Assembly (NCBI RefSeq): GCF_015143595.1
Contig: NZ_WYEU01000002.1
Coordinates: 248,001 to 312,000 of the forward strand
Source: Sneathiella sp. P13V-1
GTDB lineage: Bacteria; Pseudomonadota; Alphaproteobacteria; Sneathiellales; Sneathiellaceae
Direction: 5' to 3'
DNA length: 64,000 bases
Translations under genes and position numbers: made by a program
Part shown: positions 30,365 through 37,579 of the stretch, in pieces
How positions within the stretch are numbered: position 1 is the stretch's first letter
How the letters are laid out: the number at the start of each line of letters is the position of its first letter
The notes under the pieces: generated by a model
The model's input: only the letters and a program-made list of their open reading frames with translations
Told to the model about the DNA's origin: nothing
Databases searched by the model: none

Positions 30365-31270
30365 ATGAAGATCGAGTATTCATCAAAGGTAAAAGCTGCC
30401 ATGGATAACGGCAAACCTGTCGTTGCCCTTGAATCCACAATCATCAGTCATGGTTTTCCTTACCCAGAGAATATTGCGCTTGCCAATGAAATGGAAGCAG
30501 TGATCGAAGCAGAGGGCGCAGTGCCGGCTACAATCGCAATCATCGACGGTGTGATCAAATGCGGCCTGGAAGAAGCGGAGCTTAAGAAACTGGCATCCTC
30601 CGGTGACGTAATGAAATGCTCCGTTCGCGATCTACCACTCGTCATCAGTGAAGGGAAAACCGGCGCGACGACGGTTGCTTCTACCTCTTTTATTGCGGCA
30701 AAGGCAGGTATCAAGGTTTTTGCAACGGGTGGAATTGGTGGCGTTCACCGTGCCGAAGAAGGGGGTAACGGATTTGATATTTCTGCGGACCTTCTGGAGT
30801 TATCGCGGACACCTGTTGCAGTTGTCGCGGCGGGAGCGAAATCCATTCTTGATCTTCCTGCCACCATGGAAGTCTTGGAAAGCTATAGCGTACCTGTTAT
30901 CGGATATGAAACTGATGAGTTTCCAGCCTTTCATTGCCGTACAAGCGGGTTGAAATTGCCAGCTTCGGCTGGTGATATGGACGCTCTTGGTAAGATGGTT
31001 GCGGCCCATTTTGATATGGAGTTGCCATCAGGCCTTCTTGTTTGCAATCCAATTCCTCATGAAAATGCCATGAGTGAAGAAGAGGTTGAGGGGCTGATTA
31101 AGGCCGCGCAGGAAGAAGCGATTAATGCTGGGGTTAAAGGGGCTGCGATGACGCCTTACATCCTTGGTGCGCTGAACAGATTATCCGGCGGGAAAACGAG
31201 CGAGGTGAACCATGCCCTCGCTCTTAATAATGGTAAGGTTGCCGCAAAGCTTGCGGCAATCCTCGGTTAG
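30365..31270 (+). CDS. psuG: Pseudouridine-5'-phosphate glycosidase
   Basis: A 301-residue enzyme that splits the C-glycosidic bond of pseudouridine 5'-phosphate to uracil and ribose 5-phosphate, acting reversibly. Marks are VVALESTIISHGFPYPEN at the N-terminus, GKTGATTVASTSFIAAKAGI with the catalytic Lys region, FATGGIGGVHRAEEGGNGFDISADL and NPIPHENAM. GAGGAAAAGC precedes the ATG. The usual partner kinase PsuK and a nucleoside transporter are not adjacent. The stop overlaps the convergent stop of the YeeE-type gene. Confidence 0.95.
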   Translation: MKIEYSSKVKAAMDNGKPVVALESTIISHGFPYPENIALANEMEAVIEAEGAVPATIAIIDGVIKCGLEEAELKKLASSGDVMKCSVRDLPLVISEGKTGATTVASTSFIAAKAGIKVFATGGIGGVHRAEEGGNGFDISADLLELSRTPVAVVAAGAKSILDLPATMEVLESYSVPVIGYETDEFPAFHCRTSGLKLPASAGDMDALGKMVAAHFDMELPSGLLVCNPIPHENAMSEEEVEGLIKAAQEEAINAGVKGAAMTPYILGALNRLSGGKTSEVNHALALNNGKVAAKLAAILG

Positions 31271-31683
31271 CCTTTATTTGGAAAAAGTGTCTTAGCGACG
31301 ATAATGCCCGTTACCATTGCGACAACAAAAACCGCAATCTTTGGACTGGCATACGCAAGTGAACTGATCGCAGGTCCGGGGCAGAGGCCACCAATGCCCC
31401 AACCGGCACCGAAAAGACTTGCACCGATAAGCAAACGCTTGTCGATGTCAGAGCTTTTAGGCAGATAAAATTTATCGCCAAAAATGGGGTGTGGGCGTTT
31501 CAGGATTATATTGAAGGCAATTACGGTAACAACAAGGCCGCCGCCCATAACGAATGCAAGGCTTGGATCCCAGTTGCCTGCGATGTCGAGAAAACCGACA
31601 ACTTTTGAAGGGCTGAGCATTCCAGAAAGTGCAAGGCCATAACCAAACAGTAAGCCTGCTGCAAGTGCAATAACGAGAAACAT
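31267..31683 (-). CDS. YeeE/YedE-type half transporter, second subunit (DUF6691-like)
   Basis: A 138-residue membrane protein with about four helices, corresponding to the C-terminal half of a full-length YeeE/YedE (TsuA-like) transporter. Marks are GYGLALSGMLSPSKVVGFLDI and the cysteine-containing FGAGWGIGGLCPGPA. In TsuA-type thiosulfate transporters, cysteines in such motifs pass sulfur anions through the membrane. The ATG at 31683 follows GGAGG. It starts 5 bases after the first half-size gene. The paired arrangement equals the two DUF395 proteins of BigR-type operons (PmpA/PmpB-like). Confidence 0.88.
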   Translation of the reverse strand: MFLVIALAAGLLFGYGLALSGMLSPSKVVGFLDIAGNWDPSLAFVMGGGLVVTVIAFNIILKRPHPIFGDKFYLPKSSDIDKRLLIGASLFGAGWGIGGLCPGPAISSLAYASPKIAVFVVAMVTGIIVAKTLFPNKG

Positions 31684-31687
31684 GGGT

Positions 31688-32134
31688 TTAGCCTCCTGTA
31701 ACGGTGCGAATAACAAAAACAACGATTCCGGCGACCAACATAAAGGTCATGACGGAGGCGAGAGAGCGGATGGATAAACGGCCAAGACCGCAGATGCCGT
31801 GACCACTGGTGCAGCCCGATCCGATGGTTGTGCCAAGGCCAACCAGAAGGCCACCTGCGACCAATGCCGCATAATGAAGTTCTTCACTCAAGTTATACGG
31901 GTTGATATTGATGTAGCTGATATCGCCGCCCAGAACCGGGAAGAGAACAGCGCCGCCGATCAGTCCTAACAGGAACAACCAGCGCCATTTCCGGTCAGAT
32001 GCCGGGGCGGGGGGGATAAGGCCTCCCAAGATGCCACTGATGCCAGCGATACGGCCGCCAGCGAGCAATAGCGTTGCTGCTATGCCGATTATCAGTCCCC
32101 CTGCGAGGGACAGGAAGGGTGTAAAGTTTTCCAT
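31688..32134 (-). CDS. YeeE/YedE-type half transporter, first subunit
   Basis: A 148-residue membrane protein with about four helices, corresponding to the N-terminal half of YeeE/YedE transporters. It has LLLAGGRIAGISGILGG and GLGTTIGSGCTSGHGICGLGRLS, where SGCTSGHG holds the cysteine seen in TsuA-like proteins. It is expected to form a heterodimer with the following half protein and to move a sulfur compound such as thiosulfate, sulfite or persulfide. The gene abuts the SulP stop at 32135. Confidence 0.88.
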   Translation of the reverse strand: MENFTPFLSLAGGLIIGIAATLLLAGGRIAGISGILGGLIPPAPASDRKWRWLFLLGLIGGAVLFPVLGGDISYININPYNLSEELHYAALVAGGLLVGLGTTIGSGCTSGHGICGLGRLSIRSLASVMTFMLVAGIVVFVIRTVTGG

Positions 32135-33895
32135 TTAAATACTCCACTCAGGATCATTGAATAAGGGATTTCCCTTTGCTCCCAGTTCTTTAAAAGCTTC
32201 ATAAGTGCTTAGGTACACTTGGCCATTTTGATGTTCTTTGAAGAAATGAGTTTCCTTTAGCCTGTCCATCACGGGGCCTTTCACTTCGGCAAAATGAATT
32301 TCTACATTTTGCTCCGCCAACTCCTCATGCAGCATTTCAAGTGAATGCAAGGCGCTGCCATCGATGGAGTTGATAGCACTGCAAATGATCAACACGTCAG
32401 TAACTTCTTTGTTCGCCGCTACCTGATTGAGGATGAAATTTTCCAAATAACTTGCATTGGCAAAAAACAGGCTTTCATCAATGCGCAGTGCCAATAGGTG
32501 AGGGTAGGTTTTTACCTTATGGCGTTTGATGTTCCTGAAATGCTCTGTGTCGCCAACCTGACCGACAATGGCAATATGGGGACGACTACTACGCCAGAAG
32601 TGCAGGCTTAAGGATATTAGAATACCGATGGTAAGTCCGGTTTCAATGCCCCCAAACAGCACGGCTATAAAGGTCGCACCTTCTGCTATACCATCCGCTT
32701 TGTCATAGGAAAGGTTTTTAATGAACCCTTTTATATTCACCAGCTCCAAAATGGCAACCAGAATAATCGCCGCCAATACAGTTTTGGGAACGTAGTAGAA
32801 GAGCGGTGTGAAGAAGGCGAGTGTCAATCCAATGAGGCTGGCTGTGATGATCGCGGCAAGCTGCGTATTTGCACCTGCTGAGAAATTTACAACTGAACGG
32901 CTAAAGCCACCACAAACAGGGCTGCCACCAGTAAATCCAGCGCCGAGATTGGCAAAGCCCAACCCCCAGGCTTCCTGATTAACTTCAAGTTTCTGACGTC
33001 GTTTGCTGGCAAGTACCTTGGCAATTGCCACACTTTCCACATAGCTGATCAAAGTGATAAGAAGCGCAGAAGGAGCGAGCTGTTCGATAATATCAAAGCT
33101 AAAGCCGGGCATTGAAAGGCTCGGGATGCCTTCCGGAATTACACCAATGACCTTTACTCCAGCTGCTTGATCCAGTCCGTAAGACATCACGACTGATGTC
33201 ATTAGAACAAGCACCATCAACGGGCCCGTTTTTGAGAGGCCGGGTGCCAATGGGGCAAGGGCGGGGATTTTGGAAATCAACCCAGCGAGATATTTCTTTG
33301 CCAGATATAATAGGCTGATACTTACAGCGCCGATGGCAAGCGAGGTGCCGTTAATGCGTTGCCATATATTCTTGAGGCCATCCTCCTGCACAAAGTCGCT
33401 AAACAGCAACTTGGTTTCAAATCCAGCAAAAGGGGTAAGCTGACTGAAGGCGATCAAAATAGCGGCGGCGCTTGTAAAACCAGCCATCACAGGATGACTT
33501 AGGAATTCGGTCAGAAAGCCAAGTTTCAAGGCGCCAATAATTAAAAACAGAACGCCGATCATCACCGAGAGGACCAGTGCGGCAGCTAGATATTCTTCTG
33601 TGCCTTGCGCCGTGATAGAGGACAGCGCGTGAGCCACCATCAAGGACGCAACGGCGACAGGGCCAACGGCCAAAGTGCGACTGCTGCCAAACATGGCATA
33701 CATGATGGGCGGTGCAATGCTCGCATAGAGACCAATTTCAGGCGGTAGACCTGCAAGGGCGGAGTAGGCCATTGCTTGCGGGATCAGCAGGATCGCTGTG
33801 ATGATGCCCGCCGTTAGATCACCACTAAATGTTTTCCGCTCATAGGTCCTGAGCCATTCAAAGGCGGGTATGATGCGAGATAAGGAGATATTCAT
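32135..33895 (-). CDS. SulP family anion transporter with STAS domain
   Basis: A 586-residue SLC26/SulP protein. The membrane part of about 14 helices begins FSGDLTAGIITAILLIPQAMAYSALAGLPPEIGLYAS, the family signature. The cytosolic STAS domain of about 110 residues at the C-terminus shows LIICSAINSIDGSALHSLEML. It probably carries sulfate, sulfite or bicarbonate. Its ATG overlaps the stop of the ArsR gene (ATGA), making regulator, SulP and the two YeeE/YedE halves one operon. The setting points to sulfite or sulfate export after sulfide oxidation, which is inference. Confidence 0.93.
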   Translation of the reverse strand: MNISLSRIIPAFEWLRTYERKTFSGDLTAGIITAILLIPQAMAYSALAGLPPEIGLYASIAPPIMYAMFGSSRTLAVGPVAVASLMVAHALSSITAQGTEEYLAAALVLSVMIGVLFLIIGALKLGFLTEFLSHPVMAGFTSAAAILIAFSQLTPFAGFETKLLFSDFVQEDGLKNIWQRINGTSLAIGAVSISLLYLAKKYLAGLISKIPALAPLAPGLSKTGPLMVLVLMTSVVMSYGLDQAAGVKVIGVIPEGIPSLSMPGFSFDIIEQLAPSALLITLISYVESVAIAKVLASKRRQKLEVNQEAWGLGFANLGAGFTGGSPVCGGFSRSVVNFSAGANTQLAAIITASLIGLTLAFFTPLFYYVPKTVLAAIILVAILELVNIKGFIKNLSYDKADGIAEGATFIAVLFGGIETGLTIGILISLSLHFWRSSRPHIAIVGQVGDTEHFRNIKRHKVKTYPHLLALRIDESLFFANASYLENFILNQVAANKEVTDVLIICSAINSIDGSALHSLEMLHEELAEQNVEIHFAEVKGPVMDRLKETHFFKEHQNGQVYLSTYEAFKELGAKGNPLFNDPEWSI

Positions 33896-34200
33896 TCGTC
33901 CTCAACATCCTTGCAATATAGCTCATAAAGAACAGTTATGATGTTCTTTGCTTCTTCACCTTCTAGTGAATAGTAGATGGTTTGGCCATTACGGCGCGTG
34001 CTGACGAGGTTGTCCTTACGCAATAGAGCAAGCTGCTGGGAAATGGACGCGGGACGCATTTCCAAAGCATCTGCCAGTTCACTGACAGACTTTTCGCCTT
34101 CACCCATTTGGCACAGTAACATCAGCCGTGTCTCGTTGGACAAAGCCTTCATTAAAGTGCCGGCGCGAGTGGCTGCTTGTTTCATTTGATTTATATTCAT
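33892..34200 (-). CDS. SqrR/BigR-type persulfide-sensing ArsR repressor
   Basis: A 102-residue winged-helix ArsR protein. The recognition region is MRPASISQQLALLRKDNLVSTRRNGQTIYYSLE. Two cysteines, Cys30 (LLCQMGEGEKSVSEL) and Cys96 (LYELYC), are 66 residues apart, the same spacing as Cys41 and Cys107 in SqrR. Those residues form a di- or tetrasulfide bridge with persulfides and release DNA. It lacks the metal-site Cys-X-Cys of arsenic sensors. The gene is followed by SulP and diverges from a persulfide dioxygenase across a perfect palindrome, which is the expected autoregulated layout. Confidence 0.9.
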   Translation of the reverse strand: MNINQMKQAATRAGTLMKALSNETRLMLLCQMGEGEKSVSELADALEMRPASISQQLALLRKDNLVSTRRNGQTIYYSLEGEEAKNIITVLYELYCKDVEDE

Positions 34201-34206
34201 ACTTGC

Positions 34207-34228
34207 ATATCTATAGATTTATAGATAT
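34207..34228. promoter_or_regulatory. Probable operator of the SqrR/BigR-type repressor
   Basis: Perfect 9-base arms (ATATCTATA / TATAGATAT) with GATT between them, lying 7 bases upstream of the repressor start codon and about 50 bases upstream of the dioxygenase start. It is AT-rich and could overlap -10 elements on both strands. ArsR-family dimers bind such palindromes. Confidence 0.75.
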
Positions 34229-34278
34229 ATAGTCAATAGAAATTGAGTGTGACGATGGAAAAAATAGCGAGGGTGCAA

Positions 34279-35139
34279 ATGAAACCTGAAATTAAAGCGT
34301 TCTTTCATGAGCCAACATTTACAGTGACTTACGTGGTTGCTGATCCCCAGACTTCTAAATGTGCTATCATTGATAGTGCGCTGGATTATGATCCGAAATC
34401 AGGTCGTACAGAAACCATCGCAGCGGATGAAGTGATTGCCTATGTGCAAGATAAAAATCTGTCTGTTGAGTGGATTTTGGAAACCCATGTGCACGCAGAT
34501 CATCTGACAGCAGCTCCTTATCTCAAGGAGAAGTTGGGCGGCACTGTCTGTATTGGGGACAACGTTCCTGCAGTACAGAAAGTGTTCAAGGGTGTCTTTA
34601 ATGCAGAAGCTAAGATGCCGGTAGATGGGTCGCAATTTGATCAACTTCTCAAGGATGGTGAAGTTATCAAATGTGGTGATCTTGATATTGAGGTGATCTA
34701 CACACCAGGCCATACCCCCGCATGTGTTAGCTATGTTATCGGTGATGCGGTCTTTGTTGGCGATACGATGTTTATGCCTGATTTCGGAACGGCCCGTTGT
34801 GATTTCCCGGGTGGGGATGCAGCGCAGTTGTATGCATCAATCCAGAAAATTTTGGCGATGTCGGACGAGACACGTTTGTTTATGTGTCATGACTATGCGC
34901 CTGGTGGTCGTGAATATCTGTGGGAAACAACGGTTGGTGAGCAAAAAGCCAAAAATATCCATGTGAACTCTGGTGTGGATGAGGCTTCATTTGTCGAAAT
35001 GCGGACTAGTCGTGATAAGGAACTGGACATGCCAGTGCTTATCTTGCCATCCGTTCAAGTTAACATGCGTGCTGGTGATTTCCCAGAGCCAGAAGATAAC
35101 GGTGTCTCATACTTGAAGATTCCGCTTAACGCGCTCTAA
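34279..35139 (+). CDS. blh: Persulfide dioxygenase-like MBL-fold protein (ETHE1/Blh type)
   Basis: A 286-residue metallo-beta-lactamase-fold non-heme iron protein. Metal ligands are in THVHADHLT, TPGHTPAC, VGDTMF and FMCHDYAPGG. The layout is that of ETHE1-like persulfide dioxygenases and the Blh protein of the BigR operon, which oxidise glutathione persulfide to sulfite. I chose ATG 34279 because GAGGGTG precedes it and the encoded MKPEIKAFF matches family starts. In-frame TTG 34243 and ATG 34255 lack this support. There is no rhodanese domain fused. Divergent from the repressor gene. Confidence 0.9.
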   Translation: MKPEIKAFFHEPTFTVTYVVADPQTSKCAIIDSALDYDPKSGRTETIAADEVIAYVQDKNLSVEWILETHVHADHLTAAPYLKEKLGGTVCIGDNVPAVQKVFKGVFNAEAKMPVDGSQFDQLLKDGEVIKCGDLDIEVIYTPGHTPACVSYVIGDAVFVGDTMFMPDFGTARCDFPGGDAAQLYASIQKILAMSDETRLFMCHDYAPGGREYLWETTVGEQKAKNIHVNSGVDEASFVEMRTSRDKELDMPVLILPSVQVNMRAGDFPEPEDNGVSYLKIPLNAL

Positions 35140-36435: not shown

Positions 36436-36829
36436 ATGTCGACTCTCTCGTATTAAATCTAAGCTGCACTCAAAGACACTTCTTTAGACATGGCGCAACA
36501 CCTGAAACGCAAAACTTTTCAGGATTCTAGAAAATGTAGCGAATCCTGTCCATTAAAAACCGGCAAATAACAATATCTTTTGTGTTAAGTGGTGATCGAT
36601 GCCACCAGTTACGCACTAGTCCAGCTTATGCCTCAGCTCTAATTTCCTTCATTATTGTTAAGATAAGGTAATGAAAAGAACGAATTTTTAGTAGGAGGGT
36701 ATGGGCGTTTTTGGCTTGAGGGTTTCTGGTGCGCCGCGAAATATTTTTTGTTAAACTTTCTTTTCTGAAATGTGTCATATGTAAAATAAATCAATTAAAT
36801 CAAATGGATAAGTTTGCATCTATGCTCTA
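36436..36829. other. Gene-free region between the carboxypeptidase and phasin genes
   Basis: No convincing coding frame is seen in this stretch. It contains a 7-bp inverted repeat (AGGATTC at 36521-36527, GAATCCT at 36541-36547) that carries two GANTC sites, the target of the cell-cycle methylase CcrM, about 90-105 bases upstream of the carboxypeptidase start. The rest is AT-rich with no structure I can interpret, and it presumably holds that gene's promoter. Confidence 0.4.
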
Positions 36830-36844
36830 TTGTGCGGTGCACAA
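36830..36844. promoter_or_regulatory. TGC-N3-GCA palindrome, possible PhaR operator
   Basis: Perfect 6-3-6 palindrome TTGTGC-GGT-GCACAA ending 6 bases before the -35 element of the phasin promoter. TGC-N3-GCA cores resemble the TGC-rich sites described for the PHA regulator PhaR. No PhaR gene is in the window. Confidence 0.55.
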
Positions 36845-36850
36845 AAAGTA

Positions 36851-36878
36851 TTGACAAAGTAGATTTTTCAAATATATT
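36851..36878 (+). promoter_or_regulatory. Sigma70-type promoter of the phasin gene
   Basis: TTGACA at 36851-36856 and TATATT at 36873-36878 with a 16-base spacer. This is close to consensus and leaves a leader of about 50 bases before the ATG at 36935. Confidence 0.7.
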
Positions 36879-36890
36879 AGGTGATATTGT

Positions 36891-36899
36891 TGCAATGCA
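36891..36899. promoter_or_regulatory. Second TGC-N3-GCA box at the phasin transcript start
   Basis: TGCAATGCA lies just after the expected transcription start. Together with the box at 36830-36844 it brackets the promoter, an arrangement suited to repression. Confidence 0.45.
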
Positions 36900-36934
36900 G
36901 CATATTGAATTCTCATTTCGACAAAGGTTTACTT

Positions 36935-37513
36935 ATGAGCAATACAAAAGCGAAGACCACAACTGCAACAGAAACTGCAAAAGAAGCTGCAGCAGATGTG
37001 ACTAAAGAATTTGAAACAATGATTTCTGCAAACCGCAAGACACTTCAGGACGCTTTCAAGTCTGGTGCTGAAGCTGCTGAAAAAGCAATCCTGTCTGGCA
37101 CAGAAGCTTTCAAAACTAGCTACGAAAAAGCTGTTAAAGACAGCAAAGAGCAAGTTGAAAAAGCAGCGAAAACTTTTGGTGAAAACAAATTCTTCGACAA
37201 CGAAAGTGCGGAGCCATTTGTAAAAGCTGGAACAGCTGCTGCAGAAAAAGGCGAAAAAATTAACGCTGAACTGATCGAATTTGGCACAACACGTGTGAGC
37301 GAGTATTTCACTGCTACACGTTCTGTTCTGGATGCAGACGATTTCCAGAAAGCCGTAGAAGTTCAGACTGAATACGCTCGTAACTCTATTGAGACTTACG
37401 TTAGCGAAGCTGGCAAAATCAATGCAATGGTCATTGATGCCACTAAAACGCTAATGGAACCTTTTGGCGCACAGTATGCAGCCAATATGGATAAGTTCCT
37501 GAACCGCGCCTAA
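36935..37513 (+). CDS. Phasin family protein
   Basis: A 192-residue, mostly helical, Ala/Lys/Glu-rich protein with no signal peptide or membrane segment. The central part carries the phasin_2-like pattern FETMISANRKTLQDAFKSGAEAAEKAI and EYFTATRSVLDADDFQKAVEVQTEYARNSIETYV. Phasins coat polyhydroxyalkanoate granules and set their size and number. AAAGG is 7 bases before the ATG. An in-frame GTG at 36881 has no ribosome-binding site and would start at the transcript start. It is a single-gene unit with its own promoter, paired TGC boxes and terminator, as expected for an abundant regulated protein. Confidence 0.9.
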   Translation: MSNTKAKTTTATETAKEAAADVTKEFETMISANRKTLQDAFKSGAEAAEKAILSGTEAFKTSYEKAVKDSKEQVEKAAKTFGENKFFDNESAEPFVKAGTAAAEKGEKINAELIEFGTTRVSEYFTATRSVLDADDFQKAVEVQTEYARNSIETYVSEAGKINAMVIDATKTLMEPFGAQYAANMDKFLNRA

Positions 37514-37548
37514 GGGTGCGTCTCATAGAGTAACCGTATCGCTTTTGG

Positions 37549-37579
37549 AAAAGCCTGGGGTTTTACCCCGGGCTTTTTT
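37549..37579 (+). terminator. Intrinsic terminator of the phasin gene
   Basis: A 10-bp stem AAGCCTGGGG / CCCCGGGCTT (one G-T pair) with a TTTTA loop is followed by TTTT. It lies 36 bases past the stop. Confidence 0.9.

Follow-up and report, generated by a model that had tools for sequence, protein, structure and literature searches.

Two candidate PhaR operators bracket the phasin promoter of Sneathiella sp. P13V-1 and recur around a small-RNA promoter

The closest described systems are the PhaR-bound phasin promoters of rhizobia. The consensus TGCRNYGCASMA was derived from DNase I footprints of PhaR on two Bradyrhizobium phasin promoters, to which six further bound promoters were aligned, and in the sections of that report available to us binding in vitro was abolished by PHB (PMC6201568). 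According to the same sections, the PhaR operators of phaP1 and phaP4 of Bradyrhizobium diazoefficiens contain TGC-N3-GCA boxes that fit TGCRNYGCASMA, and phaP1 has two such boxes, the first 6 bp upstream and the second 6 bp downstream of the -35 element. For Sinorhizobium meliloti, the available part of PMC12542648 gives near-identical palindromes as operators of PhaR (AniA) at phaP1, phaP2 and mmgR, two per phasin promoter and one listed box at the PHB-linked mmgR; the phasin copies flank the -35 element at an offset of 18 bp (in the row that we take as phaP1) and 28 bp (phaP2). Sinorhizobium PhaR shifted a promoter carrying TTGTGCACTGCACAA in EMSA, such shifts were lost when the palindromes were removed or mutated, and either box copy alone was enough for binding (PMC12542648). 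MmgR is itself reported, in the accounts at hand, as a phasin repressor in Sinorhizobium. The PhaR sites of Paracoccus denitrificans and Rhodobacter sphaeroides (as cited in the excerpt of PMC10888616) consist of repeated TGC sequences, and we compare them in kind, not in spacing.

The stretch of DNA analysed here (the window) comprises 64,000 nucleotides of Sneathiella sp. P13V-1, a genus for which a literature search with the terms Sneathiella and polyhydroxy found neither word in any title or abstract. It contains a phasin gene that is the only Phasin_2 match in the genome; TIGR01985 and TIGR01841 match it as well, both under their own cut-offs, and among 17 related records found by the phasin profile the closest is 83% identical. 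The gene is flanked by a divergent D-Ala-D-Ala carboxypeptidase-like gene on one side and by open reading frames recognised by eye as clpS-clpA on the other. Elsewhere in the window, positions 31267-35139 hold two YeeE/YedE-like open reading frames and a SulP-like permease (all by eye), together with a BigR-like ArsR regulator and a persulfide-dioxygenase-like metallo-hydrolase (both under the NCBIfam cut-offs), perhaps forming a sulfur-handling island. The features of the phasin promoter and gene are, in window coordinates:

36798-36810, + strand: IHF-like element AATCAAATGGATA, one mismatch to WATCAANNNNTTR
36830-36844, + strand: box 1, candidate PhaR-type operator TTGTGCGGTGCACAA (TTGTGC-GGT-GCACAA), perfect 6+3+6 palindrome, read directly
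36851-36856, + strand: -35 element TTGACA, read directly
36873-36878, + strand: -10 element TATATT, after a 16-bp spacer from the -35 element, read directly
36888-36902, + strand: box 2, candidate PhaR-type operator TGTTGCAATGCAGCA (TGTTGC-AAT-GCAGCA), one arm-to-arm mismatch
36923-36927, + strand: ribosome-binding site AAAGG (shared by 19 of the 22 congeneric phasin leaders, the remaining three having AAGG or GAGG)
36935-37513, + strand: phasin gene, 192 aa, ATG at 36935, PF09361 (Phasin_2) 66.7 bits against a cut-off of 24.9
37551-37579, + strand: likely intrinsic terminator of the phasin gene, a hairpin followed by a T run, by eye

Where the phasin transcript ends, positions 37507-37579 give a weak SorX match below threshold (26.9 bits against a gathering threshold of 46.6), which is probably just the hairpin of this terminator.

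The first-pass annotation had described TGC-N3-GCA boxes on either side of a near-consensus promoter at 36851-36878, and direct reading bears this out: both boxes are in place, one of them being the palindrome announced there, and TTGACA-16-TATATT lies between them. The core of box 2 given at that stage, TGCAATGCA at 36891-36899, extends to 36888-36902. The -35 element begins 6 bp past the end of box 1, the same distance as for the first phaP1 box of B. diazoefficiens (PMC6201568, available sections), and the arms of box 1 are those of the Sinorhizobium phasin site TTGTGCACTGCACAA (again the row taken as phaP1), of which only the 3-bp centre differs (PMC12542648, available part). Box 2 is placed differently from the second box of either rhizobium. 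It begins 9 bp past the -10 element, at or just past the predicted transcript start, so that the offset between the boxes is 58 bp in the window and 57-62 bp in the Sneathiella cases described below, against 18 and 28 bp in S. meliloti. A box beyond the -10 element was not found in the parts of the literature searched, which for PhaR operators at phasin promoters cover those of Bradyrhizobium and Sinorhizobium. The kind of operator is already known, and the spacing, its conservation and a small-RNA partner are what this locus adds.

Both boxes match the consensus TGCRNYGCASMA exactly, box 1 on both strands, and there is no other match in the window. Because the boxes fit a consensus derived from footprints and the genome has phaR, phaC and phaZ, and because the pair is kept among relatives (all 22 congeneric phasin promoters, 31 of 35 phasin matches overall), we consider it very probable that they are paired operators for the polymer-binding repressor PhaR, which would keep the promoter shut until polymer titrates PhaR away. 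When polymer is lacking, PhaR occupying the two boxes, at about -49 (box 1) and about +9 (box 2), would shut a strong, housekeeping-type promoter; granule formation would then titrate PhaR off the boxes, and its release would allow phasin to be produced and to coat the granules. Binding by PhaR, repression, release by polymer, the position of the transcript start and co-operation of the two sites are all deduced here from sequence. The locus offers a complete and testable operator map for a phasin promoter outside the studied rhizobia.

How unusual the boxes are depends on the pattern that is counted. With 15 copies observed versus 25.45 expected from shuffles, the plain 9-mer TGCNNNGCA shows no enrichment in the window, and for that reason we dropped plain TGCN3GCA as evidence. 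The longer consensus and the pairing are, unlike the 9-mer, unusual. The sequence TTGTGCNNNGCACAA occurs exactly at three places in the 3.7-Mb genome, and TGCRNYGCASMA gives 41 strand-wise matches versus 18 for the reversed pattern. The strict paired pattern TGCTGCN3GCA-N45-56-TGCN3GCA, which asks for GCAGCA in box 2 (TGCTGC on the opposite strand) and so leaves looser pairs outside its scope, is found at two places in the genome, the phasin promoter and a small-RNA promoter, and at none with the reversed-pattern control. Several of the single-box sites in the genome fall within open reading frames. The sites inspected include PhaR-type boxes at L075:5101-5115 (after a gatB-like gene, by eye), L076:8245-8259 (about 295 bp upstream of an NMT1_2 gene), L078:3613-3627 (about 40 bp ahead of a transporter of the sulfate-permease family) and L026:1501-1512 (77 bp ahead of an HpcH/citrate-lyase-type gene).

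The conservation of the pair was examined in 60 genomes, 24 of which belong to the genus (23 besides that of the window). The phasin search gave 35 matches in 34 of the 60 genomes, including 22 of the 24 of the genus. In all 22 congeneric phasin promoters both boxes were found, 57-61 bp apart, with TTGACA between them and a TATA-rich stretch at the place of the -10 element, although the other phasins are only 51-84% identical to that of the window and the sequence from box to box is diverged. Outside the genus a pair at 55-62 bp precedes nine of the 13 phasin matches (L065-L071, L219 and L222), which brings the overall count to the 31 of 35 given above. The other four lack a pair at this distance: at L072 the boxes are 68 bp apart and at L220 50 bp, L223 has clustered boxes and L221 has no box, though its genome has phaR (at the five loci L219-L223 the search for boxes reached as far as 700 nt from the protein match). 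A bracket of two sites around the core promoter thus recurs in relatives whose promoters are otherwise diverged.

These counts bear directly on whether the boxes might be chance palindromes, or just conserved promoter sequence, with no regulatory meaning. The window count of the plain 9-mer, no higher than in shuffles, would be compatible with that, and we nevertheless regard it as hardly credible: a pair at 55-62 bp was present at 29 of 30 phasin loci against 0.01 loci expected from dinucleotide-shuffled upstream regions (150 nt at 27 loci, extended to 220 nt at L066, L067 and L071 because of their more distant start codons), an expectation that ignores shared ancestry, and the two paired matches in the genome stand against none for the control. 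Across the 24 genomes of the genus the strict paired pattern gave 47 matches and the control again none. They are divided over the phasin promoter (21 matches in 19 genomes, two of which were matched on both strands), one small-RNA promoter (22) and other places (4, in G001, G002, G008 and G011). In G001 (L168:1546-1580) the boxes are closely spaced and lie between a LysR-type gene, recognised by eye, and a short open reading frame, and the site in G002 (L185) looks similar by eye.

The conserved distance raises a second question, namely whether PhaR binds here with only one box doing the work, the other being weak or accessory and the spacing merely reflecting the promoter in between. A single copy sufficed for EMSA binding in Sinorhizobium, at least in the available part of PMC12542648, and the spacing does track the length of the promoter (58 bp with a 16-bp spacer at phasin, 62 bp with a 17-bp spacer at the small RNA). 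Set against this, all 22 congeneric phasin promoters retain the two boxes despite the diverged DNA between them, and each box keeps its own outer end, GCACAA for box 1 in 21 of 22 congeners and GCAGCA for box 2 in 19 of 22. Since these ends differ, the boxes are not interchangeable copies, which suggests that both have been selected, and we judge a single working box rather unlikely.

Upstream of box 1 a further element appears to be retained. In the congeners WATCAANNNNTTR, which we take to be the IHF consensus, is found at -33 to -29 from the edge of box 1, exactly in 10 of 22 (0.01 expected) and with at most one mismatch at the same offset in 18 of 22 (0.25 expected). Our guess is that this element binds IHF.

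The identity of the protein that binds the boxes was approached through the PHA genes of the genome. The first-pass annotation had proposed to look for phaR, phaC and phaZ with TGC-N3-GCA near them, and had named the absence of phaR as the finding that would speak against PhaR. A single phaR match was found (TIGR01848, 162.8 bits against a cut-off of 109.45), whose product has both the DNA-binding and the accumulation domain (PF07879 and PF05233), and profile searches gave one match apiece for phaC and phaZ; boxes are present at phaR and phaZ and absent at phaC. The TTG start of phaR is preceded at 30 bp by an exact consensus box, which a divergent phaC-like alpha/beta-hydrolase gene shares at 267 bp. 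At the phaZ frame there are two TGCN3GCA boxes, of which one immediately precedes the first ATG and the other overlaps it; neither fits the full consensus. No exact box was found within about 300 nt upstream of phaC, phaA and phaB. In the genus an exact TGCN3GCA is present upstream of phaR (in about 200 nt before the expected start) in 10 of 22 congeners, and the remaining 12 have one-letter variants, [TCG]GC-N3-GC[AG], mostly two at about 20 bp from each other, a looser pattern that was picked post hoc and of which chance matches are fairly frequent in such a stretch. The variants were seen at about -92 and -72 in, for instance, L095, L097, L098, L100, L102 and L108. Taken over the genus, the boxes upstream of phaR may be a weak sign of phaR autoregulation.

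Whether the pair follows the presence of phaR is harder to read. Outside the genus the paired pattern is found in none of the 17 genomes without a phaR match and in 14 of the 19 with one, a contrast that is confounded by the small size of the genomes without phaR and that we count as weak support for dependence on phaR; the 25 non-genus matches (3 for the control) include several that resemble chance matches in coding DNA. The genome-wide density of the consensus is also higher in genomes with phaR (p about 5e-5), those without being small, and the ratio of consensus to reversed control shows no clear difference (p = 0.08; outside the genus p = 0.50). This density comparison took 58 of the 60 genomes, leaving out the congeners G008 and G016, which have paired boxes and no phaR match.

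The two congeners could be taken as a sign that another dimeric regulator recognising TGC-N3-GCA, and not PhaR, binds the boxes. Symmetry does not by itself identify a protein, and phaC, phaA and phaB are without boxes; the assemblies in question are fragmented or incomplete (G008 is 98% complete in about 580 contigs, G016 56% complete). That another regulator is involved seems quite improbable to us, for both boxes fit the PhaR consensus letter for letter, phasin, phaR and phaZ all carry boxes, and the 14 non-genus genomes with the paired pattern all have a phaR match. The proposal of the first-pass annotation that the boxes are PhaR operators is supported by the match to the consensus, the presence of phaR, the boxes at phaR and phaZ and the conservation of the pair, and putative control by PhaR is the reading that we carry on to the second place at which the pair occurs.

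That second site precedes a structured RNA:

L201:2034-2244 (C3 about 270533-270743): structured small RNA with CCUCCC stretches, recognised by the box pair and by covariation

It lies at 270.6 kb of C3, between a preceding gene of LysR type (by eye) and a following gene in the opposite orientation. Its promoter in the genome of the window consists of box 1, ten bases, TGGAAA, 17 bp, TATATT, fourteen bases and box 2, with the boxes offset by 62 bp. With looser boxes the pair was recovered at this RNA in 23 of the 24 genomes of the genus, 61-62 bp apart in each; the one genome in which it was not recovered is G010 (65% complete). RNAalifold predicted five helices on the alignment of the 23 genomes, four of which were counted, the one that overlaps box 2 being excluded. 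In these four, 99.4% of the cells pair and 17 of 29 pairs have changed on both sides; none of 500 shuffles reached the observed values on four measures, and a fifth measure, of further pair types, was unexceptional (187 of 500 shuffles). The pairing is lost when the helix partners are slid. It should be kept in mind with these values that the structure was derived from the alignment on which it was tested, which favours structure.

No Rfam family covers the small RNA at threshold. It resembles mmgR (RF00519), SorX (RF02784) and the alpha-r14 'cuckoo' small RNAs (NfeR1), which are short hairpins exposing a C-rich anti-Shine-Dalgarno stretch, and we assign it to neither mmgR nor SorX, given scores below the gathering thresholds (30.2 bits versus 41 and 29.9 bits versus 46.6, respectively). 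The cuckoo RNAs, as far as described in the accessible text, have CCUCCUCCC in unpaired regions of three hairpins; the sequences of the small RNA that were inspected lack CCUCCUCCC and have CCUCCC in one hairpin loop and in one single-stranded stretch. Two RNA-like stretches flank the small RNA in a tandem cluster, at L201:1800-1960 (CUCCC) and 2250-2440 (CCUCCC). Both are sub-threshold SorX matches, the downstream one with 38.9 bits (gathering threshold 46.6).

By analogy with NfeR1, which was shown to block ribosome-binding sites (PMC10746234, available part), the CCUCCC stretches suggest that the small RNA may act in the same way. Among 14 start regions the strongest predicted pairing was with that of phaR (-19.0 and -17.7 kcal/mol for the two stretches). 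The phaP start reached -5.1 and -6.6 kcal/mol, the weakest of the 14 for one stretch and the fourth weakest for the other, with seven control regions between -4.1 and -15.7; repression of phasin in the manner of MmgR is thus not supported. As the AAAGG of phasin pairs poorly and the phaR site is the best of those tried, the predictions suggest that the RNA would spare phasin and damp phaR, and we treat the phaR start region as a lead for its target. In this genome the ribosome-binding site of phaR is GGGGGG (L074:8008-8040), the best partner for CCUCCC among the 14 start regions. Such a G-rich site at phaR is not general across the genus.

Taking promoter and RNA together, one might see in the bracketing pair a co-operative PhaR clamp used in many Alphaproteobacteria, which in Sneathiella would tie above all the phasin and the small RNA to the polymer level, the RNA sparing phasin and damping phaR. 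We put this forward tentatively, as a possibility about which we have more doubt than belief. If true, polymer would turn on a coat protein plus a broad translational regulator in Sneathiella. Because a search with the signature by itself leads to a conserved small RNA, polymer state may be coupled to post-transcriptional control in this group. Sinorhizobium offers a parallel for such a link, via a different small RNA, mmgR, with the single listed box against the pair found here (PMC12542648, available part).

Canonical mmgR is present in the genome too, as a homologue above the Rfam gathering threshold at L082:4126-4200 (C1 233125-233199). The TGCN3GCA nearest to it is a TGTTGCAATGCAGCA box 280 bp upstream, a distance that makes it doubtful as a direct target with a simple operator; in three congeners (L123, L133 and L134) TGCN3GCA boxes lie 282-309 bp upstream of mmgR. 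Outside the genus, boxes of the form TGC-N3-GCG-RCA, a GCG variant of the PhaR box, were seen by eye just upstream of mmgR-family matches at L119, L120 and L126.
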